Source of the DNA: an uncultured beta proteobacterium
GTDB lineage: Bacteria > Pseudomonadota > Gammaproteobacteria > Burkholderiales > Burkholderiaceae_C
DNA: 36,700 nt
Assembly: GCA_903822435.1 (NCBI GenBank)
Contig: CAIJPE010000196.1
Location: 1-36,700, forward strand
Direction: 5' to 3'
In this document: piece by piece, positions 3,418 through 21,959 of the stretch
Numbering within the stretch: position 1 is the first letter of the stretch
Layout: the number at the start of each line of letters is the position of its first letter
Notes under the pieces: model-generated
What the model was told of the DNA's origin: nothing
Databases searched by the model: none
What the model saw: the letters and a program-made list of their open reading frames with translations, nothing else
Translations under genes and position numbers: made by a program

Positions 3418-3848
3418 GTTCAGGGTCCTTCAGCGGTGTTTGCCGCACGGTAGGCGCGGGCTCTGATGACTAGAACGAGGCCAGCGGCTGAAGTCAGACA
3501 CGACGCGACCCCCCAATTTGAGGGGAGAGGGCGCTGACCACGCACCCGCGCTACCCAGCGTCAGCAACAGGGCGACGTCCTTTGAGCCGATCAACGTGCG
3601 CGCTCGCGCGGTCGCAGTGGGTTACAGCTCAATCAACCTGCCGCCGACAAACACGTGGCGGGCGCAGGTCAGCTACCCCAAGCCAAGCATCTCGGCAGCG
3701 CTAGGTTACGATCTTCGCGGGGCGATCCGCGGAGTCAGTAGCGGCGTGGGGCAAATCACAGTGCTGTCAGCGGCCCTTGGCCAGGGCAAGCGTGATGCCG
3801 CAGGCGTACTGCATGTGCCGCTCCATGCCGATCTGCGGAGGCTGGTTC
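3418..3848. other. Divergent intergenic region, no gene recognised
   Basis: About 430 bases separate the divergent starts of the beta-strand-repeat protein and the kinase, and must hold both promoters. A C-run/G-run pair at 3509-3525 could form a four-base-pair stem. A plus-strand frame is open over much of the stretch, but its product resembles nothing I know and has no good ribosome binding site. I could not place a convincing sigma-70 or sigma-54 promoter. Confidence 0.5.
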
Positions 3849-6800
3849 ATGCTGCGAGCCTCATCTGACCTGTCGGCCGCCTGGTCCGCGCTGGATTGGC
3901 AGCAGGCCTTCGAACTCCTCGACGTCGCGCTGGATCTGGACGCCTCGGCGCAGGCGGCCTGGCTGGCCTCGCTGGGGCCGGAGCAGGCCACTCTGAGGTT
4001 GATGGTCGAGAAGTTGCTGCAGAACCGTCTGGCCCTTGGCGCCGGCGAGTTCATGAGCACCCCCGCATACGGCGTGTTGGCCGAAGGGGCGCAGCCACGC
4101 CAGGTTGAAGCGCAGGCTCTCATCGGTCCTTATCGGTTGGTGCGGCAGATCGGCCAGGGCGGCATGGCCGATGTCTGGCTCGCGGTGCGGGCCGACGGCC
4201 TGCTCGACCGCCCCGTCGCATTGAAACTGCCACACACCAGTTGGGGCGGTGCGTTGCATGCCGAGCGCATGGCCCGTGAGCGGCAGATCCTGGCCTCGCT
4301 GACACACCCGCACATCGCCCGCCTGTACGACGCCGGCATCGGCGAAGACGGGCGTCCGTATCTGGCGCTCGAGTATGTCGCCGGCCAGCCGATCGATGAA
4401 TACGCCCGTGCCCACACGCTTTCGGTGCGTGCCCGGGTGGAACTGATGGTGCAGGTTGCACGGGCCGTCGCGTACGCGCATGCGCAGCTGGTCGTGCATC
4501 GCGACATCAAGCCATCGAACATCCTCGTCGATGCGGCCGGCCAGGTGCGCCTGCTGGATTTCGGCATCGCGAAGATCATCGATCCGTTGCTTGACGACGA
4601 GTCCCCTGGAAGCCCGCTGACCCAAATGCACGGTCGCGCGCTGACGCCGGACTACGCCTCGCCCGAGCAGATCCGGGGCGACGCCATGGGAACGTCTTCC
4701 GATGTGTACTCGCTGGGCATCGTGATGTTTGAGTTGCTGGCCGGAGAGCGCCCTTATCGCCTGCCCAAGGGACTGGGTGCGGTGGCCCTGGCCGAGGCGG
4801 TGGCGCGGGCCTCCGTGCCGCGGTTGAGCGCTGTCGCGGCCGACCGGGCCCTGAAGCGCCAGCTTCAGGGAGATCTGGATGCGATCGCCCACCGCGCACT
4901 GGCCAAGGCAAGCGACGAACGCTACGCCACCATGGAAGCTCTAGCGGACGATCTCGAGCGTCACCTCGCCGGCCTGCCGGTGCGTGCGCGGCCAGATTCG
5001 CGCTGGTACCTGGCCGAGCGATGGGTGCGGCGCCACAAGCTCGAGACGGCGGTTGCCCTGGCGATCATCGTGGCCCTGCCGGCCGGCGCAGCGGCGCAGG
5101 TGGCGGTGCTGGCGGCCATCGCTGCGGGCGCGGGCGTGGCCTTGTGGCAGGCCCGCGCGGCTCGCGCCCAGGCACAGCGGGCCGGGGCCGAGGCGGCACG
5201 CGCAGCCGCAGTCAAAGGCTTCCTGACGAGCTTCTTCGAGTCGGGGAGCCTCGACAAGGATGGCGGGGCGCTGCTCGGACGCCTGACGGTGCGCGAGTTC
5301 GTTGAGCGGGGCGCAGCCCGCATCGACACCGGCTTCGAGCGGCAGCCCCAGCTGAAGGCTGAGTTGTACGACGTCGTCAGCGCCCTGTTCGCCGACTTGT
5401 CGGACGGCAATGCCACGGTGACCTATGCGCGCAAGTGGCTGGCCAGCCTCGATCGCTTCCGAGCGTCCGAAGCGGAGCGGGCCAGGGCGCAGCAGCGTCT
5501 GGCGCGTGGCTTGATCCTGCTGGGGCAGTACAGCGAGGCGATCGAAATGCTTGCCAGCAGCATTGCGCGCCTGACTGCGCGAAACGATACCGCCGACGTG
5601 TTGCTGTTGGCCGAGCTATGGATTCTGCGCGCACGGGCAACGGCCGAACGCGGCGACCACCCCAACGCCTTGGCCGGCGTCGATGCCGCCTATGCCTTGC
5701 TCGTCGGCACTGGAGCCGCCGATGACCGTGCGACTGACACCGTCCGTGCCGAGGCCCAGTTCCTGCGGGCTGAACTGATCGCGCTCGACAACCGTCAACA
5801 AGAGGCCGTTCCGCAGTTCGAAGAGGCCATCGCTCTTCTGGAGCGCATCCACGGAGAGCGCTCGCTGGTCGTGGCCCGGCATCGGTTCATCTACGGCAAG
5901 GTGCTGGGCACCGCAAGGCAGGACGCTCAAACCGTTCGCGAGTATCGCCATGCCCTTCGTCTTGTGCGCGAGGCGGGCGGCGCAGATGACCTCAATTCGT
6001 CAATCATTGAACTCGACCTGGGCAGGCACCTCGCCTTGAGAAGCACCTCGCGAGCGGAAGGCCTGACTTTGCTCGATCATGCGCGCCACGTATTCGCTGC
6101 CCGCATCAGGGATGTCTCGCCGAGCTACCCAGCCACCGCGAACCTCTATCTTGCAGAAGCACTGATCGACCAGGGAGAACTCGAGCTCGCCCGCGAGCCC
6201 ATGGAAGCCGCTGCCGCACACTGCCGCGACAAGATCGAGAACGCGGGCCTGCGCAGCCTCGTGACCCTGGTGCATGCTCGATACCTTGCGGATTGTGGAG
6301 ATTACGACGGCTCCGATCGGCTTCTTGAGTCCTGTTATGAAGAACGCGTGCGGACTTTTGGCCCCGAACACCCGCTGAGCGCATCCGTCGTGAACCGCAT
6401 CGGCATGAATCATTCAAGGCGGCAGGACTATGCTCGCGCGATTTCGCATTTCGAGCAGGTTTTGCAGTCGCAGGACCATGTCGAGTCCAGCTGGGGCTCA
6501 GTCAAACACCAGGCGCAGATCAACCGCGCGGTCGCGTATCTTGAATCGGGCGCGGTGGCACAGGCATTGCCCGTGTTTCAGGAGGCGGTCGACCGGTATC
6601 TCGTCCTGCCGCCGGCTTCCCGCAACGACCTGACCGAGGCAACGATCTGCATGCAGCTCGGTCGCGCCCTGCTCGCTGAGGGTCAACCGGCGCCCGCCCT
6701 ACACTTGTTGCAGCGCTCTGTGGACATCTTTTCGAGCATGAATCCGCTGGCAGCGAACGTGGCCTTTCCGCTGGGCTGGCTCGGGCTCTGTCTGCTCGAA

Positions 6801-6935
6801 TTGGGTAGACCGGAACAGGCGCGTGTCCACGCCGAGGCGGCGCGCGAGGCACTGACGGCTCACCCGCTGGCCGGCGCGCACTTCCGTCGAAGCCTTGCGC
6901 TTTTGGACGAGCGGCTTGCGGCCGCAGGCCGTTGA
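3849..6935 (+). CDS. Transmembrane Ser/Thr protein kinase with C-terminal TPR region
   Basis: 1028 residues from the ATG at 3849, chosen because GGAGG lies seven bases upstream; the frame stays open for 24 codons further up without a comparable site. A bacterial PknB-type kinase domain covers about residues 93-375: glycine loop IGQGGMADVW, VALK lysine near 126, catalytic HRDIKPSN with Asp near 219, DFG near 237, and SPE in the activation segment. A hydrophobic segment near 400-433 should anchor it in the inner membrane, with the kinase in the cytoplasm. The region after about 480 is helical and reads as TPR-like repeats, by family a protein-binding module. All key catalytic residues are present. 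Kinases of this layout are often next to an ECF sigma factor, but none lies in this window. Its targets are unknown; the neighbouring surface-protein genes are only candidates by position. Confidence 0.9.
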   Translation: MLRASSDLSAAWSALDWQQAFELLDVALDLDASAQAAWLASLGPEQATLRLMVEKLLQNRLALGAGEFMSTPAYGVLAEGAQPRQVEAQALIGPYRLVRQIGQGGMADVWLAVRADGLLDRPVALKLPHTSWGGALHAERMARERQILASLTHPHIARLYDAGIGEDGRPYLALEYVAGQPIDEYARAHTLSVRARVELMVQVARAVAYAHAQLVVHRDIKPSNILVDAAGQVRLLDFGIAKIIDPLLDDESPGSPLTQMHGRALTPDYASPEQIRGDAMGTSSDVYSLGIVMFELLAGERPYRLPKGLGAVALAEAVARASVPRLSAVAADRALKRQLQGDLDAIAHRALAKASDERYATMEALADDLERHLAGLPVRARPDSRWYLAERWVRRHKLETAVALAIIVALPAGAAAQVAVLAAIAAGAGVALWQARAARAQAQRAGAEAARAAAVKGFLTSFFESGSLDKDGGALLGRLTVREFVERGAARIDTGFERQPQLKAELYDVVSALFADLSDGNATVTYARKWLASLDRFRASEAERARAQQRLARGLILLGQYSEAIEMLASSIARLTARNDTADVLLLAELWILRARATAERGDHPNALAGVDAAYALLVGTGAADDRATDTVRAEAQFLRAELIALDNRQQEAVPQFEEAIALLERIHGERSLVVARHRFIYGKVLGTARQDAQTVREYRHALRLVREAGGADDLNSSIIELDLGRHLALRSTSRAEGLTLLDHARHVFAARIRDVSPSYPATANLYLAEALIDQGELELAREPMEAAAAHCRDKIENAGLRSLVTLVHARYLADCGDYDGSDRLLESCYEERVRTFGPEHPLSASVVNRIGMNHSRRQDYARAISHFEQVLQSQDHVESSWGSVKHQAQINRAVAYLESGAVAQALPVFQEAVDRYLVLPPASRNDLTEATICMQLGRALLAEGQPAPALHLLQRSVDIFSSMNPLAANVAFPLGWLGLCLLELGRPEQARVHAEAAREALTAHPLAGAHFRRSLALLDERLAAAGR

Positions 6936-10810: not shown

Positions 10811-11455
10811 TCAAAGTCCGCTCAAGGACTGCAGGTAGGCAGCGACGTCGTCGATGTTCTGCTGGGTGAGTTCGTGCGCCACGGTCTTCATGATGCTGCC
10901 CTCGGGACGCTCGTCGGTACGCTGAAAGACGATCAGCTGCTTGACGAGATAGTCGGCGTGCTGCCCGGCCAGCCGCGGAAAGGTGCCGTTGCCCTTCGCC
11001 TGGGCGCCATGGCACGTGGCGCAGGGGGGCACGCCCTTGTCGGGGACGCCGTGCTCGAAGACGGCTTGGCCGCCCTCCAGCCGCCCGCGACCGCCGTCGA
11101 TGACCTCGCCGGTCTGCACCTGACCGCTGTAGAACTTGGCCAATCCCTTGATCTGCTCATCCGTCAGCCTGCGGCTCAGGCCCCACATGTATTCGAAGCC
11201 TGCAGGGTCGTGTCGGCCGTGGCTCTTGAAGCCGTTGAGTTGAGCCTCGATGTAGGCCTCGGGCTGGGCGGCCAGATTCGGAAAGTTCGGCGAGGTGGCA
11301 TTGCCCGTCAGGCCATGGCAGTTCGAGCAGACTTGCTGCGCCAGGGTTGTTGCCGATACCGCCGGATTGGCCAGGTCGCGCGAGCGTTCAGGGTTGGCGC
11401 AGCCGATGGACAACGCCGCAGCGGCCAAGAGCAGCGTCCAGGTGCCAGATTTCAT
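10811..11455 (-). CDS. Diheme cytochrome c (c4-like) lipoprotein
   Basis: 214 residues with two c-type heme sites, CSNCH at 43-47 and CATCH at 145-149, in two similar halves, as in cytochrome c4. Met90 (FEYM) and Met189 (SIMK) are plausible sixth heme ligands. The signal ends in a lipobox (SIGC, Cys19), so it is probably lipid-anchored and faces the periplasm. The start at 11455 has GGAGGA eight bases upstream. It lies 41 bases downstream of the fused cytochrome-barrel gene on the same strand, which suggests one operon and a role in carrying electrons between that outer-membrane protein and inner-membrane carriers. The cytochrome assignment is directly visible; the electron route is inferred. 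Confidence 0.92.
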   Translation of the reverse strand: MKSGTWTLLLAAAALSIGCANPERSRDLANPAVSATTLAQQVCSNCHGLTGNATSPNFPNLAAQPEAYIEAQLNGFKSHGRHDPAGFEYMWGLSRRLTDEQIKGLAKFYSGQVQTGEVIDGGRGRLEGGQAVFEHGVPDKGVPPCATCHGAQAKGNGTFPRLAGQHADYLVKQLIVFQRTDERPEGSIMKTVAHELTQQNIDDVAAYLQSLSGL

Positions 11456-11496: not shown

Positions 11497-12960
11497 TCAG
11501 TAGGCCAGCCAGGTGTAGAGGAAGAGGGTGTCGTTGTCGCGGGCATCGCGCCCGAACCCGTCGTAGTTCGTGGAAGCGCCGTTGAATTTGCTGTAGGCCG
11601 TGTATTGAGCGCCAATCCGCATGAACTGGATCGGCAGCCAGAAGGCTTCCAGCGTCGAGCCTCGCGTGGCCGGGTTGCCCGACAGGTTGCTGCCGGCGCC
11701 TGCGGTCTGGGTCAGATTACCGGTTGCGTCGTAACCGGCGGTCTGGGCCGCCGTGTTGGTCGTGCCGGTCAGGCTGAACACACCAAGGCTTGCGCCGTAC
11801 TTGGCCTGGTACACGTAGCTCAGCTTGGCCCGCAAGACGTGATTGGTGTCGGCGGCATTCGTGTTGGGCAGCGTGGCCGCGCCCGCGGCATCGAAGAAGG
11901 CCGACGGCTGATCGGCCTGTGCGGCGGGGTAGCGGTGGTGGTTGTACGTGTAGACCAGCTGGGCCGTGAAGGCGTGGGGATCGAGCTGGTACTGGTATTG
12001 CGAGTCGATGTTGATATCGGTGTAGCGGTGCGTGCTGGCCGGGTCGGATGTGTCCAGCGGATCGTCGTAGACCTGGGCGACCATGCCGGAGGTCCCGACC
12101 ATCAGGCTGTGGGCTCCCCATTCGGTGTTGAGAGCCAGGCGCCAGTACGGATTGATGCCCCTGAGCTGGGTCTTGCTGGCCTTGTCGACGCCCGCGCTCA
12201 TGAAGGCGCTCAGGCCGCGTGAGGTGCCATAGCCGCCCACTTCGACATAGAGGCGCTTGTTCAGGTAGGCGTAGGCCGTGAGCCCGGCGATGTTGCCCCC
12301 GGCGCCAAAGCCCGGATAGGGCGCGCTGCCATCGACGAAGCGGCTGCTGGTCGGGCTGGGCACCGGCACGTATTGCATCCAGGCCGACGCCGTGTTCCAG
12401 GGGTCCGACACCGAAGGATTGTTGTTGGCGCTGATGCCGACGATGAGATCGCGCTGGCTGCTGATGAAGCGGTCCGCGAAGCGGATGTCGATGTTGTCGG
12501 CGCTGGTGTGGCCGTGGAAGGCGCCATTGGCGTCCTGCGTGGCGTAGGGGTCGTAGGTGATCTGCGCGAAGCCGCCGATGTTGTCCGTCACCTTCCCACC
12601 CAACAACAGGCTGGCCGTGGCGAGGATGGGCCGGTTGTTCTTCTGGAAGTCGCCGGCCGGGTCGTCAGACTTTGCCGTATTGGCAACCTTGGACATCGAC
12701 ACCACCGCCATCGCCGAGATGGGCATGGCCCTCTCGCCGATGGTGTAGCCGGTCATCTTGAACAGCCGACCGTAAGGCGTCAGTTCGGGGAACTGACCGC
12801 CCGCGTGGCAAGCCACGCAGTTTTGTCCCGTTTGCCGGTTGAACGCAGGGATGGCTTGCGCATCCAGGGTCAGCATGGCGAGGGTCCAGGGCAGGAAAGC
12901 GAGCAGGGCCGCCCCGCGCCTGGAGACCACACAGCCACTTTCCCGGGTCGAGGTCATCAT
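11497..12960 (-). CDS. Fused monoheme cytochrome and outer-membrane beta-barrel protein (Cyc2-like architecture)
   Basis: 487 residues. The start at 12960 has GGAG eight bases upstream (a second ATG follows immediately). A signal peptide ends near AQA, residue 36. One heme site, CVACH at 48-52, follows directly, with the motif FPELTPYGRLFKMTGY behind it. From about residue 90 to the end the sequence alternates polar and hydrophobic residues in barrel-type strands with Gly/Asn/Asp turns, and it ends in the aromatic TWLAY, the usual C-terminal signal for barrel insertion. This is the layout of fused cytochrome-porins such as the iron oxidase Cyc2: a heme plug joined to a porin that moves electrons across the outer membrane. 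I do not claim it is Cyc2; a related heme-barrel family of unknown role is equally possible. It leads the operon with the diheme cytochrome. Confidence 0.85.
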   Translation of the reverse strand: MMTSTRESGCVVSRRGAALLAFLPWTLAMLTLDAQAIPAFNRQTGQNCVACHAGGQFPELTPYGRLFKMTGYTIGERAMPISAMAVVSMSKVANTAKSDDPAGDFQKNNRPILATASLLLGGKVTDNIGGFAQITYDPYATQDANGAFHGHTSADNIDIRFADRFISSQRDLIVGISANNNPSVSDPWNTASAWMQYVPVPSPTSSRFVDGSAPYPGFGAGGNIAGLTAYAYLNKRLYVEVGGYGTSRGLSAFMSAGVDKASKTQLRGINPYWRLALNTEWGAHSLMVGTSGMVAQVYDDPLDTSDPASTHRYTDINIDSQYQYQLDPHAFTAQLVYTYNHHRYPAAQADQPSAFFDAAGAATLPNTNAADTNHVLRAKLSYVYQAKYGASLGVFSLTGTTNTAAQTAGYDATGNLTQTAGAGSNLSGNPATRGSTLEAFWLPIQFMRIGAQYTAYSKFNGASTNYDGFGRDARDNDTLFLYTWLAY

Positions 12961-13208: not shown

Positions 13209-14093
13209 TCAGTCGCGCATGATGTCCGCGACCAGCTTGCGCACGATGGGCAGGGCGGGCGGCTCAGCCCGGCGGGCGAGCGTGACGATGCCGAAGCGCG
13301 CGGTCGCGTTCATCGCCGGCTTGAGCACCAACTCTTCGAGATCGGGCGCCGCGGCGCGGATGGCGATCAGCACGGCATCACTGTGGCGCACCACGTCGAC
13401 GAGGCTGGGGATTTCCTCGCAGCGCAGCGTCACGCACGCGTTCGGGTGGGCCTCGGGCCCGTAGCGCTCGACCATCGTGCGCGCGACCTCGTCGCTCAGC
13501 GGCGTCGAGGCGATGGGAAACTGCCGCAGCGCATCGAAGCGAACGGCGCCCTTCCACCGCGTGAGCGGATGGCCTGCGCGCACCATGAAAGCGCCACGCA
13601 TCTCGACCAGGTTGGCCACGCGCAAGTCGGGGGCCGGTGACAACGAGCGGGCGTCGACGACCAACGCATCGAGTTCGCGTTCGCGCAACTGGCGCGTCAG
13701 CACATCGGTATGGCCCCGCGCGATCTCCACGTGAATGGCCGGGTGAGACCTGGCCATCGTCCTCAGCAGCGGGGTCATCAGCATGGCGCCCGGCCCCGAA
13801 CCCAACCCGAGGCGCACCGTGCCCGAGCGACCTTCCTGCATCTGTCTTCCGCTGCCGGCCAGTTCATCGGCGTCGAGCACCAGTTGGCGCGCGCGCTGCA
13901 ACGCCTCGGCGCCGAAAGGCGTCAGGACACTGCGCCGCCCCACGCGGTCGAACAGCGGCTGGCCGAGTTCATCCTCCAGGGCCCGGATGCTGCGGCTGAG
14001 CGCAGGCTGGGTCAGGAACAGCGCCTCGGCCGAGCGCGTGAACGAACCGCTCTGCGCCAGCGCTATCAGGTGGCGAAGCTGCACGAGCGTCAT
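13209..14093 (-). CDS. LysR-family transcriptional regulator
   Basis: 294 residues from the ATG at 14093, chosen because MTLVQLRHLIALAQ is the normal family start; an upstream ATG at 14150 would add 19 atypical residues. The winged helix-turn-helix occupies about residues 1-62 (SGSFTRSAEALFLTQPALSR and the following ALEDELGQPLFDR). The remainder is the periplasmic-binding-like effector domain (GTVRLGLGSG, then HPAIHVEIARG). LysR proteins respond to small molecules and often control the divergent gene, here the MHS-type transporter starting at 14271. It lies about 250 bases upstream of the cytochrome operon on the same strand, so that operon is a second possible target. The effector is unknown. 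Confidence 0.93.
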   Translation of the reverse strand: MTLVQLRHLIALAQSGSFTRSAEALFLTQPALSRSIRALEDELGQPLFDRVGRRSVLTPFGAEALQRARQLVLDADELAGSGRQMQEGRSGTVRLGLGSGPGAMLMTPLLRTMARSHPAIHVEIARGHTDVLTRQLRERELDALVVDARSLSPAPDLRVANLVEMRGAFMVRAGHPLTRWKGAVRFDALRQFPIASTPLSDEVARTMVERYGPEAHPNACVTLRCEEIPSLVDVVRHSDAVLIAIRAAAPDLEELVLKPAMNATARFGIVTLARRAEPPALPIVRKLVADIMRD

Positions 14094-14142
14094 CGGGAAA
14101 ACCTGCTTCTTGCATTCACGAAACTCATCATAAGCGCACCGA

Positions 14143-14152
14143 CAATGCATTG
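14143..14152. promoter_or_regulatory. Palindrome CAATGCATTG in the LysR/MHS divergent region
   Basis: A perfect 10-base palindrome lies in the 177-base space between the divergent lysR-type and transporter starts. LysR operators usually hold short dyads in such spaces, so it is a candidate core of a regulatory site. It does not fit the T-N11-A box closely, and chance occurrence is possible. Confidence 0.3.
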
Positions 14153-18937: not shown

Positions 18938-19717
18938 ATGCCGAATTGGGCATCCCTTCTGCCGACCCTCCCCCTGACCCGCCTGGTCGCACTGGCACTG
19001 GGCGTCAGCCTGGGAGCGATGGCCCACGCCGCCGACCTGACCGTATCGGCCGCCGCCAGCCTGGGCAATGCCTTCAAGGACCTGGCCCCGATGTTCGAGG
19101 CGGCCCATCCCGGCACCCGCGTGCAGACCAATTTCGCGGCCTCGGGGCCCTTGCTGCAGCAGATCGCCCGCGGCGCGCCGGTGGATGTCTTCGCCTGCGC
19201 CGATCAAGAGACCATGGATCAGGCGCAGGCCCAGGGTCTGGTGCGGGGCGCGCAGCGGCACGACTTCGCGTCGAACGCCCTGGTGCTGGTTGTGCCGGCC
19301 GGAGCGGCCCAGGTGCCCGCCAGCCTGAACGACCTCGCGCAGCCCGGCTACGCCCGCGTGGCCATCGGCCTGCCGGCCAGCGTGCCCGCGGGGCGTTACG
19401 CGCAGGCCGCGCTGCAAGCCGAGGGCCTGTGGCCGGCCGTGGTGCCGAAGATGATCGGGGCGCAGAGCGTGCGCCAGGCCCTGGACTACGTGGCCCGCGG
19501 TGAAGTCGACGCGGGCTTCGTCTACGCCACCGATGCCGCCCTGATGCCCGGCAAGGTGAAAGTGGCGTTGGCCGTCGCCACCGACAAGCCGGTGCGGTAT
19601 CCGGCCGCCCCCGTGGCGGCCAGCCCGCAGGCCGCTCTCGCGCAGGCCTTCGTCGAGTTCCTGCTTTCGCCAACGGCCCAGGCGGTGCTGGCCAGGTACG
19701 GATTCGGCAAGCCCTGA
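18938..19717 (+). CDS. modA: Molybdate ABC transporter, periplasmic binding protein ModA
   Basis: 259 residues with a signal peptide ending near AHA (residue 31). The mature start ADLTVSAAASLGNAF is the ModA signature; FAASGPLLQQI and RGAPVDVFA follow, and the fold continues to YGFGKP at the C-terminus. It captures molybdate (or tungstate) in the periplasm and delivers it to ModB. It is the first gene of modABC-modE; modB starts 15 bases after its stop. The start has almost no Shine-Dalgarno sequence. Transcription is probably repressed by ModE through the operator just upstream. Confidence 0.95.
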   Translation: MPNWASLLPTLPLTRLVALALGVSLGAMAHAADLTVSAAASLGNAFKDLAPMFEAAHPGTRVQTNFAASGPLLQQIARGAPVDVFACADQETMDQAQAQGLVRGAQRHDFASNALVLVVPAGAAQVPASLNDLAQPGYARVAIGLPASVPAGRYAQAALQAEGLWPAVVPKMIGAQSVRQALDYVARGEVDAGFVYATDAALMPGKVKVALAVATDKPVRYPAAPVAASPQAALAQAFVEFLLSPTAQAVLARYGFGKP

Positions 19718-19732
19718 AGCGGACCCTGCCCG

Positions 19733-20407
19733 ATGGATGCGGCCTGGGTTGCCCTGGCGCTGACACTGAAGGTGGCGGGCTGGGCCACGGCCTTGAACCT
19801 GCTCCTGGGCGTGGCCGTGGGGCAGGCCCTGGCGCGCTGGCGATTTCCGGGGCGCGATCTGCTCGACGCGGTGCTGACGCTGCCGATGGTGATGCCGCCC
19901 ACCGTGCTGGGCTACTACCTGCTCGTGCTGATCGGAACCCACGGGCCGGTGGGCGCGTGGCTGCTGCAACACTGGGGCATCCGGCTCATCTTCACCTGGC
20001 AGGCCGCCGTGATCGCGGCCACCATCGTGTCCTTTCCCTTGGTGTTCAAGTCGGCGCGCGCCGCCTTCGAGACGGTCGATCCGCAGTTGGAAGACGCCGC
20101 CCGGTTGCTGGGCATCGGCGAGGTGGCGCTGTTTTTCCGGGTTTCGCTGCCGCTGGCCTGGCGCGGGGTGCTGGCCGGTTTGCTGCTGTCATTCGCCCGG
20201 GCGCTGGGAGAATTCGGCGCCACGCTGATGGTGGCCGGCAGCATTCCCGGCCAGACGCAGACCCTCAGCATCGCCGTGTACGAAGCGGTACAGGCGGGTC
20301 AGGACGACACGGCCAACTTCCTGGTGGCCATCACCTCGCTGGTGTGCCTGTCGGTGCTGCTGGGCGCGGGCCGCCTGGTGCCTGGCCGTGTGGCGCCGCG
20401 GGCTTGA
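19733..20407 (+). CDS. modB: Molybdate ABC transporter permease ModB
   Basis: 224 residues, the usual ModB length, with about five membrane helices. The conserved permease loop that docks the ATPase reads ARALGEFGATLMVAGSIPG (EAA-type motif), and LPMVMPPTVLGYYLL is typical of ModB helix 2-3. It forms the inner-membrane channel for molybdate. It starts 15 bases after modA and ends nine bases before modC, so all three should be on one transcript. Confidence 0.95.
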   Translation: MDAAWVALALTLKVAGWATALNLLLGVAVGQALARWRFPGRDLLDAVLTLPMVMPPTVLGYYLLVLIGTHGPVGAWLLQHWGIRLIFTWQAAVIAATIVSFPLVFKSARAAFETVDPQLEDAARLLGIGEVALFFRVSLPLAWRGVLAGLLLSFARALGEFGATLMVAGSIPGQTQTLSIAVYEAVQAGQDDTANFLVAITSLVCLSVLLGAGRLVPGRVAPRA

Positions 20408-20416
20408 AGGCAGGCG

Positions 20417-21097
20417 ATGATCTGGGACATCGATATCGCCAAGCGACTGCAGCACGGGGCCTCCCGCTTCGACCTGGCCGTGGCCTTTCGCAGCGATGCC
20501 CGGCGCCTGGTGCTGTTCGGGCCCTCAGGGGCCGGCAAGACGCAGACGCTGAAGGCCCTGGCCGGCCTCGTGCGGCCCGACCGGGGCCACGTGCGCGTGT
20601 CCGGCGCCACGCTCTACGCCAGCGCTCAAGGCATCCACCAGACACCCCAGCAACGGCGGCTGGCCTATGTGTTCCAGGACTACGCCCTGTTCCCGCACCT
20701 GACCGTGCGCCAGAACATCGCCTTTGCCCGCAGCCGGGGCTGGTTCAACCCGCCGCGGCGGCAGCAACACGCCGGCGTGGAACGCTGGATCGAGACCTTC
20801 GGCCTGCAGTCGGTGGCCGGCCACTACCCGCACCAGGTCTCGGGCGGCCAGCGGCAACGCACGGCCCTGGCCCGGTCGCTGATGAACGATCCGACGGCGC
20901 TCCTGCTGGACGAGCCCTTCGCAGCGCTGGACAAGGGCCTGCGCCGACACCTTCGGGCCGAACTGGCCGGGCTGCTGCACACGCTGCAGATCCCGCTGCT
21001 GATGATCACGCACGACGAAGACGACGTGCAGGCGCTGGCCGACGAAGTGGTGCACCTGCAAGGCGGCCGCGTGGTGGCAGCCGGCGGAGCCGCCTGA
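20417..21097 (+). CDS. modC: Molybdate ABC transporter ATPase ModC, short form without TOBE domain
   Basis: 226 residues. The ATPase motifs are complete: Walker A GPSGAGKT (35-42), Q-loop FQDYALFPH, signature SGGQRQR (142-148), Walker B LLLDEP (162-167) and switch THDEDD. It powers molybdate import with ModB. Typical ModC is about 350 residues because of a C-terminal TOBE/Mop domain that senses molybdate; this one stops directly after the nucleotide-binding domain. The shape is seen in some other ModC proteins, so it need not be a recent truncation. The adjacent ModE carries two Mop domains that may supply the sensing. Confidence 0.93.
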   Translation: MIWDIDIAKRLQHGASRFDLAVAFRSDARRLVLFGPSGAGKTQTLKALAGLVRPDRGHVRVSGATLYASAQGIHQTPQQRRLAYVFQDYALFPHLTVRQNIAFARSRGWFNPPRRQQHAGVERWIETFGLQSVAGHYPHQVSGGQRQRTALARSLMNDPTALLLDEPFAALDKGLRRHLRAELAGLLHTLQIPLLMITHDEDDVQALADEVVHLQGGRVVAAGGAA

Positions 21098-21134
21098 GCC
21101 GCCGGTATCCTTCGCCGCATCCGCAGGAGCAGGC

Positions 21135-21959
21135 ATGGCCCCCCGAAAGAAGCAGAAGGACGAACGGTTCTCGGTGGGCGGCGCCATCTGGCTGAGCGTC
21201 GGCGGCGAGAGCTTCGGCGGCAAGGCCCGCATCGAGCTGCTGCGGGCCCTGGTGCGCGAAGGCTCCATCACCCATGCGGCCAAGGCGGTGGGCATCAGCT
21301 ACAAGTCGGCCTGGGATGCCATCGACCGCATGAACACGCTGGCCGGCGAGCCGCTGGTGGCACGCAGCGCCGGCGGCAAGGGCGGTGGCTCGACCCACCT
21401 CACCGCCCACGGGCTGCGCCTGGTCGAACGCTTCGGGCAGATCGACGCGGCGCACGAGCGCTTCCTGAAGCTGCTGGACGACGAGTCCATCGACCTGTCC
21501 CACGAGTTCTCGCTGCTCAAGACCGTCAACCTCAAGACCAGCGCGCGCAACCAGTTCACGGGCACGGTGACGGGACTGCACACCGGGGCCGTCAACGACG
21601 AGGTGGAGCTGACGCTGCCGGGAGGCGCGCGCATCGTGGCCATCGTCACCCGCGACAGCACGCAGGCGCTCGGCCTGCGCATCGGCATCACGGCGTTCGC
21701 GCTCTTGAAGTCGTCCAGCGTCATCGTGGCGGCCGACATCCGCAGCGTCAAGATTTCGGCACGCAACCAGCTGCACGGAGCGGTGGCCTCGGTCACCCCC
21801 GGGGCCGTGAATGCCGAGGTAGACATCGCGTTGGACGGTGGTGGGCACATTGCCGCCACGGTCACCCAGTCCAGCCTGGATGAGCTCGGCTTCGTGCCCG
21901 GCAGCCGGGCCACGGCGTTGTTCAAGGCCTCCAGCGTGATCCTGGCCGTGGCGGCCTGA
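21135..21959 (+). CDS. modE: Molybdate-responsive regulator ModE
   Basis: 274 residues in the full ModE layout. An N-terminal LysR-like winged helix spans about 27-115 (ARIELLRALVREGSITHAAK, then the recognition helix SYKSAWDAIDRMN). Two Mop/TOBE domains follow (about 133-197 and 205-271), each with the molybdate-binding SARNQ motif (KTSARNQFTG and KISARNQLHG). Bound to molybdate, ModE dimers repress mod transport genes. It lies 37 bases after modC on the same strand, so it is probably autoregulated through the operator at 18893. Confidence 0.95.
   Translation: MAPRKKQKDERFSVGGAIWLSVGGESFGGKARIELLRALVREGSITHAAKAVGISYKSAWDAIDRMNTLAGEPLVARSAGGKGGGSTHLTAHGLRLVERFGQIDAAHERFLKLLDDESIDLSHEFSLLKTVNLKTSARNQFTGTVTGLHTGAVNDEVELTLPGGARIVAIVTRDSTQALGLRIGITAFALLKSSSVIVAADIRSVKISARNQLHGAVASVTPGAVNAEVDIALDGGGHIAATVTQSSLDELGFVPGSRATALFKASSVILAVAA

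Follow-up and report, generated by a model that had tools for sequence, protein, structure and literature searches.

A predicted Cyc2-type cytochrome-porin and its diheme partner gene in a Burkholderiales genome: a probable electron gate

A single polypeptide that joins one c-type heme site to an outer-membrane-type β-barrel raises the question of whether it belongs to Cyc2, the fused cytochrome-porin described as an Fe(II) oxidase (PMC8406198, PMC7029218), and of what it would do in its host. Such a protein is encoded on a 36,700-nucleotide stretch of DNA (hereafter the window), which corresponds to contig C196 of a 6.07 Mb, MAG-like assembly of 426 contigs (98.5% complete, 3.17% contamination).

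Domain layout and predicted fold

The reading frame at 11497..12960 (minus strand) was taken from the list of open reading frames and encodes a protein of 487 aa, which Cyc2 homology and the AF2 barrel mark as a Cyc2-type fused monoheme cytochrome-porin. Its signal peptide (residues 1-36; 12853..12960, minus strand) was recognized by eye as a hydrophobic run followed by AQA. The heme domain (residues 37-77; 12730..12852, minus strand) is supported by its conservation and by column counts and contains the CVACH heme site (residues 48-52; 12805-12819, minus strand), while residues 78-487 (11500..12729, minus strand) make up a porin barrel of the outer-membrane type, assigned by AF2, Foldseek and VIA-align. 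The polypeptide thus runs from a hydrophobic N-terminus closing in DAQA through IPAFNRQTGQNCVACHAGGQFPELTPYGRLFKMTGYT to a portion of approximately 410 residues, and the heme site is flanked by IPAFNRQTGQN upstream and by FPEL and YGRLFKMTGYT downstream. In the AF2 model, the signal peptide forms a helix (residues 6-32), and the barrel comprises 16 strands, with a long loop (residues 180-223) joining strands 5 and 6 and a Tyr at the C-terminus. Porins of the PDB match this predicted barrel in Foldseek and VIA-align, and the fold is that of general porins. The first-pass annotation, made from the letters alone, had described a single CVACH heme site joined to an outer-membrane-type barrel with an aromatic end and had proposed a predicted barrel of 14-18 strands as a check; the model bears out both.

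Searches with the complete protein returned no Pfam family above the cut-off (one sub-threshold row, E 0.084), no NCBIfam match at E<=0.1 and no PDB sequence at E<=10; a phosphate-porin (PF07396) paralogue, sought as a control in the same genome, gave no match. The frame is not a chance one, since 2783 of 8000 scored candidates match it at E<=1e-3. Among the matches listed, 119 others show 67-84% identity, and the names on the listed relatives, where given, are 'cytochrome C', 'cytochrome c' or 'hypothetical protein' (Leptothrix, Caldimonas, Burkholderiales).

Conservation is highest, among the long segments, in the heme domain, with a mean of 3.99 bits for residues 36-77 versus 2.93 overall (91 rows). 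Across three groups comprising 375 relatives, P38, R42, Q43, C48, C51, H52, P58, L60, G64, F67 and K68 are retained in 97-100% of sequences, with G64, F67 and K68 at 98-100% in all three. The 100% conservation of C, C and H in these 375 rows is circular, because the rows were picked by a CXXCH pattern; P38 and R42 likewise belong to the row-picking pattern, and Q43 to the pattern used to fetch the Gallionellaceae type, whereas P58, L60, G64, F67 and K68 lie outside the selection patterns. Within this set, K68 is a candidate heme contact.

Relation to Cyc2 and the Gallionellaceae type

The published Cyc2 signature comprises AXPXFAR[Q/K][T/Y] and a PXL motif four residues past CXXCH, and sequences lacking PXFAR were excluded from the published tree (PMC8406198). 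Set against this definition (Keffer et al. 2021, PMC8406198), the window protein has a signal peptide (by eye), a single N-terminal CXXCH and, at 487 aa with 16 strands in AF2, the required length of at least 365 aa and fused 16-strand porin barrel; its AIPAFNRQT, however, carries one mismatch (N for A), and its PEL follows the heme H at a spacing of 5 residues. Judged strictly by the published motif, the protein misses Cyc2 membership by one residue and one spacing. The FNR variant occurs in 115 of the 120 proteins listed as closest relatives, and in a second listing of 120 relatives FNR or YNR was counted in 55, FAR or YAR in 57 and no pattern in 8.

A single-sequence search gave heme-domain-only matches to distant relatives (E 9e-10 to 1.8e-6), which turned out to be Gallionellaceae-type Cyc2; one of these sequences is that of Gallionella sp. 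STC_7. A profile scan of named genomes then yielded 505 relatives, the best 80 of which were used as the Gallionellaceae-type set; their titles include Gallionella, Sideroxydans, Candidatus Ferrigenium altingense, Nitrosomonadales, and Deltaproteobacteria and Nitrospirae MAGs. Judging from organism names and papers, we infer that these rows represent Cyc2 Cluster 1 (published for Mariprofundus PV-1). The heme-PXL spacing is 4 in 79 of the 80 loci, the remaining one being without a pattern match.

In hhalign, 131 window-clade rows and the 80 Gallionellaceae-type rows align over their full length (396 columns) with a probability of 98.8% (E 4.2e-17); pairwise identity of the window protein to ten Gallionellaceae-type rows is 17-22%. 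Once the heme region is removed, the same comparison becomes weak (39.1%, E 3.1e-4). A set of 22 intermediate rows, also without the heme region, matches the window clade at 100% and the Gallionellaceae type at 96.1%. Reversed profiles, the only controls in these comparisons, scored 0.1, 0.1 and 0.1% against the Gallionellaceae type and 1.3% for the window clade versus the intermediates. Since the direct barrel-only comparison falls to 39.1%, homology of the barrel to that of Gallionellaceae-type Cyc2 is supported through the intermediates and not directly.

In a tree of 87 picked rows, in which 15 of 81 inner branches are below 80 and four rows deviate in letter make-up, a long branch (100/100) separates 25 Gallionellaceae-type rows from the 62 others, and the window protein is among these 62. 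The 25 rows also take in MAGs of Nitrospirota, Myxococcota and Campylobacterota. The window clade thus lies outside the Gallionellaceae-type clade. From the sets of relatives analyzed, ten without a pattern-found heme site had been dropped.

The two types share a signal peptide, one CXXCH, PxFxRQ, PxL and the GxxFK segment. Used as an AF2 control, Gallionella sp. STC_7 Cyc2 also shows 16 long strands, with strands 5 and 6 again linked by a long loop (strand counts by eye), as in the window protein, and differs by an extra short hairpin ahead of the barrel. The segment FPELTPYGRLFKMTGY is the window clade's form of a Gallionellaceae-type segment resembling FPxLNxFGRxFKxxGYT, whereas the spacing (4 in the Gallionellaceae type, 5 in the window) and FAR in place of FNR set the two types apart. 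Altogether, homology to the Gallionellaceae-type reference rows identifies the 11497-12960 product as a Cyc2-type fused cytochrome-porin of a variant clade, and it probably works like Cyc2.

The Cyc2 layout proposed in the first-pass annotation was therefore right, and the profile comparison it suggested aligns the two types end to end, with the reservation on the barrel given above. Its further proposal, a separate and little-described family recognizable by the motif around the heme, does not hold in that form: the core PxL followed by GRxFKxxGY recurs in Gallionellaceae-type Cyc2. The clade is distinct in FNR for FAR, in one extra heme-PXL residue and in the deep branch from the Gallionellaceae type.

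The diheme partner, host genome and distribution

Overlooked in the first-pass annotation of the cytochrome-porin gene, a second cytochrome gene lies directly downstream at 10811..11455 (minus strand). Its ATG is located 41 bases past the cytochrome-porin stop, with a GGAGG in between, and it encodes a Cyc1-like diheme c4-type cytochrome c of 214 aa, a predicted lipoprotein (LSIGC), as judged from Pfam, which finds two Cytochrom_C stretches, from the lipobox and from a structural match. Among solved structures, the top match is 1h1o, 'cytochrome c-552' (E 2.2e-33, 118.8 bits; cytochrome c4 1etp, 95.3 bits), which we take to be Acidithiobacillus Cyc1 (AfCyc1, CYC41). The same structure ranked first for all four partners tested. 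Eighteen other extracted partners are 38-60% identical to that of the window; [YM]MWG occurs in 18 of the 19, with YMW in the aligned 1h1o sequence, and a lipobox pattern following the PROSITE rule in 16 of 19. Cyc1 itself is described as a membrane-bound diheme c4 (PMC2754497), and the window pair shows the arrangement expected of it, a diheme c4-type cytochrome gene directly after cyc2.

To judge how regularly the two genes travel together, downstream frames were counted by eye in the 30 best-scoring, not random, window-type loci, the window included. A same-strand two-heme ORF follows in 21 of them, a single-heme ORF in 2, an ambiguous one in 1 and no heme ORF in 6. In the Gallionellaceae type, by contrast, 65 of the 80 loci had enough downstream sequence (15 were too short), and a two-heme ORF follows in 3 and a single-heme ORF in 2. 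In 19 neighborhoods (21 loci, less 2 without a cytochrome-porin by pattern), the partner is at position +1 in 16, the window's own being hidden by a longer overlapping frame, and besides the pair no gene family recurs in more than four. The partner, together with published reports, points to Cluster 2 as the likely placement of the window clade, with Cluster 3 as the alternative.

The host assembly carries RuBisCO (E 7e-132, both domains; Pfam returned RuBisCO matches only on the frames of that locus) as well as pufL, pufM and a PufC. The PufC reaction-centre cytochrome ORF, on contig C218 (L208:1988-3529), has a C-terminal OmpA domain (PF00691, E 2.9e-14); its OmpA part was also matched in 3 of the 6 congener loci examined, and a literature search for PufC with an OmpA domain found none. 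Rusticyanin, which with Cup and an aa3 oxidase belongs to the electron-transfer partners of AfCyc1, gave no match in the host genome at E<=1e-3 and, across 398 genomes of the phylum, 51 weak matches with none above the cut-off; a Pfam scan of 24 window frames gave no cox, cup or rus match. Elsewhere in the window, an apparent molybdate cluster occupies 18938-21959 (plus strand), with SBP_bac_11, BPD_transp_1 and ABC_tran followed by LysR-type HTH and TOBE domains, apparently ModA, ModB, ModC and ModE, and a 1052-aa frame at 3777-6935 (plus strand) fuses a protein kinase domain to tetratricopeptide repeats. A LysR-type gene at 13209-14150 was considered as a dedicated regulator of the pair and rejected, as an 84-88% identical gene is present in three pair-less congener stretches. 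Recent insertion found no support in composition: GC of the pair is 0.649, versus 0.658 to the left and 0.705 to the right, and its GC3 is 0.84-0.87, versus 0.80-0.87 in four neighbors.

Within the genus, 6 of 41 genomes carry a cytochrome-porin of the window kind; apart from the window host, the five versions are 32-49% identical to it, and two of them match by the heme domain only; two of these congener loci also carry a partner relative (39% and 44%). Carriers number 38 of 299 genomes in the family and 58 of 250 in the order. RuBisCO (E<1e-100) is present in 20 of the 38 family carriers versus 77 of 261 others (odds ratio 2.7, Fisher p 0.0085, kinship ignored) and in 8 of the 13 closest carriers (p 0.032, kinship ignored). 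As the remaining 18 of 38 have no RuBisCO match at that threshold, lithoautotrophy is not required for carriage. Of 21 genomes of the genus, 14 have Photo_RC. A family-wide link to phototrophy was rejected: Photo_RC is found in 6 of 38 family carriers versus 42 of 261 others (p 1.0) and in 2 of the closest 13, so that a photosynthetic reading is one for the window host alone.

Plasmids, too, carry relatives of the cytochrome-porin, in Ideonella, Paraburkholderia, Caballeronia and Methylocystis. In 6 of 7 plasmids the next gene downstream is annotated 'c-type cytochrome', including those of Ideonella dechloratans, Caballeronia and Methylocystis, a count that covers 7 of 9 records and reflects annotation, not heme number; on the Paraburkholderia plasmid such a gene lies two genes upstream of the cytochrome-porin instead. 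The Caballeronia plasmid has a HiPIP gene upstream of the cytochrome-porin, and that of Methylocystis sp. MJC1 has three consecutive c-type cytochrome genes after it. A plasmid of Acidithiobacillus ferrooxidans and a conjugative one of Acidiphilium cryptum share the same neighborhood, in which a cytochrome-porin relative adjoins a transposase, which suggests exchange between iron-cycling acidophiles.

Proposed function and comparison with published systems

We propose that the genes at 12960-10811 (minus strand) probably encode a Cyc2-type electron gate with its periplasmic acceptor and with Fe(II) as the most likely donor. That the cytochrome-porin is a transmembrane redox gate can be held with considerable confidence; for Fe(II) as donor with inward electron flow, we lean towards acceptance. 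The barrel would span the outer membrane and have both its ends on the periplasmic side, so the N-terminal heme domain would be placed at the periplasmic mouth of the pore or inside it. A small donor in solution, for which Fe2+ is the likeliest candidate, would enter the pore and pass one electron to the heme, from which it could move to the lipid-anchored diheme cytochrome, on to the periplasmic pool and finally to a putative terminal oxidase, in the window host possibly also to the photosynthetic reaction centre. Cyc2 homology, the shared predicted topology, the Cyc1-like partner, the cyc2-cyc1 order and the RuBisCO enrichment count for an Fe(II) gate. The missing rusticyanin, cox, cup and rus matches, the weak barrel-only match, FNR, the spacing of 5, the 9 of 30 loci without a clear two-heme ORF, the MAG-like host, the 18 of 38 family carriers without a RuBisCO match at the threshold used, the 6 of 41 genus carriers and a betaproteobacterial Fe(II) oxidizer that has no Cyc2 (PMC8552755) count against it.

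The direction of flow is the first point on which another reading bears. The same pair could run outward and deliver electrons to Fe(III) or to some other acceptor outside the cell, as has been proposed for Acidithiobacillus Cyc2B/Cyc1B (PMC8790237), and Cyc2B or Cyc2/Cyc1 isoforms are reported from Fe(III)-reducing acidithiobacilli (PMC8790237, PMC10715153). Sequence cannot give direction, and nearly half of the family carriers have no RuBisCO match at the threshold used; the RuBisCO enrichment nevertheless leans weakly to lithotrophy, and none of the 24 scanned window frames is a bc1 or CymA-type gene in Pfam, which leaves outward flow unlikely.

Alternatively, the gate could oxidize a small non-iron donor (Mn(II), reduced flavins or phenolics, nitric oxide), or the protein could serve in redox sensing or as a gated pore, in organisms whose metabolism does not run on iron. 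The wide spread over the order and over the plasmids named above would suit this, and the published classification allows further Cyc2 functions, with Cluster 3 the most uncertain (PMC8406198). Yet the heme-domain core is common to Fe(II)-oxidizing Cyc2, the partner is Cyc1-like, and no neighbor points to another substrate, because none besides the pair recurs in more than four of the 19 neighborhoods; we regard a non-iron role as improbable. That the protein is an ordinary porin whose heme segment is a relic, for which the general-porin fold could be cited, is scarcely credible given the conservation of the heme domain, including the five residues outside the selection patterns, and the adjoining two-heme ORF in most of the best loci.

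A further possibility concerns the window host, whose genome is of the purple type (pufLM, PufC, RuBisCO): the gate and its lipoprotein partner might supply the reaction centre with electrons from iron. This would be Cyc2-based photoferrotrophy in a Burkholderiales lineage whose genus is largely phototrophic. We consider this doubtful; the RuBisCO and puf genes of the window host give light-driven iron oxidation the standing of a concrete hypothesis. Among the papers listed in title- and abstract-level literature searches, none dealt with Cyc2 in phototrophic members of Burkholderiales. The FNR-bearing clade, widespread in the order sampled, would be missed by the published PXFAR screen, and the two genes together, not the barrel by itself, offer a testable marker. 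Cultured carriers such as Ideonella dechloratans (Sphaerotilaceae), whose homolog is 64% identical to the window protein, open the function of non-Cluster-1 Cyc2 to testing in hosts not known as iron oxidizers.

Several published observations frame these possibilities. For Cyc2 of PV-1, a redox potential of 208 mV is given (PMC8406198). Burkholderiales and Cupriavidus were among the putative iron oxidizers in weathering cultures (PMC7767972), and iron-rich springs yielded Burkholderiales-like cyc1 and a phototrophic Rubrivivax MAG reported without carbon-fixation genes (PMC12501874); Rubrivivax has also been named as rich in pet and pio/mto components (PMC10654088). Betaproteobacterial Fe(II) oxidation can do without Cyc2, because Rhodoferax lithotrophicus, a betaproteobacterial Fe(II) oxidizer, is described as having none (PMC8552755).

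Among known systems, the Acidithiobacillus Cyc2-Cyc1 pair offers the same order of a cytochrome-porin followed by a diheme c4-type cytochrome, the latter being represented by the closest structure in all partner tests. The rus operon, with the reported order cyc2-cyc1-cup-cox-rus (PMC10654088), differs in that the window pair lacks cup, coxBACD and rus among the frames scanned. Photosynthetic Acetobacteraceae encode Cyc2 beside a mono- or diheme cytochrome and share with the window the two-gene arrangement in phototroph genomes (PMC10715153); their Cyc2 is alphaproteobacterial, whereas the nearest named protein relatives of the window assembly are Burkholderiales. Related in host is the Leptothrix-Sphaerotilus group, for which Cluster 2 cyc2 and cyc1 homologs are reported (PMC11412304, PMC13386937), and a Leptothrix sp. 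'cytochrome C' is 80% identical to the window protein over 95%. A published similarity network also ties AfCyc2 to Burkholderiales and heterotrophs (PMC10654088). The window clade is probably the same as these Leptothrix-Sphaerotilus and AfCyc2-linked Burkholderiales homologs, a correspondence drawn from hosts and reports. Cyc2-Cyc1 pairs and Burkholderiales Cyc2 homologs are already published, and the window pair is a variant of this known kind of gate.
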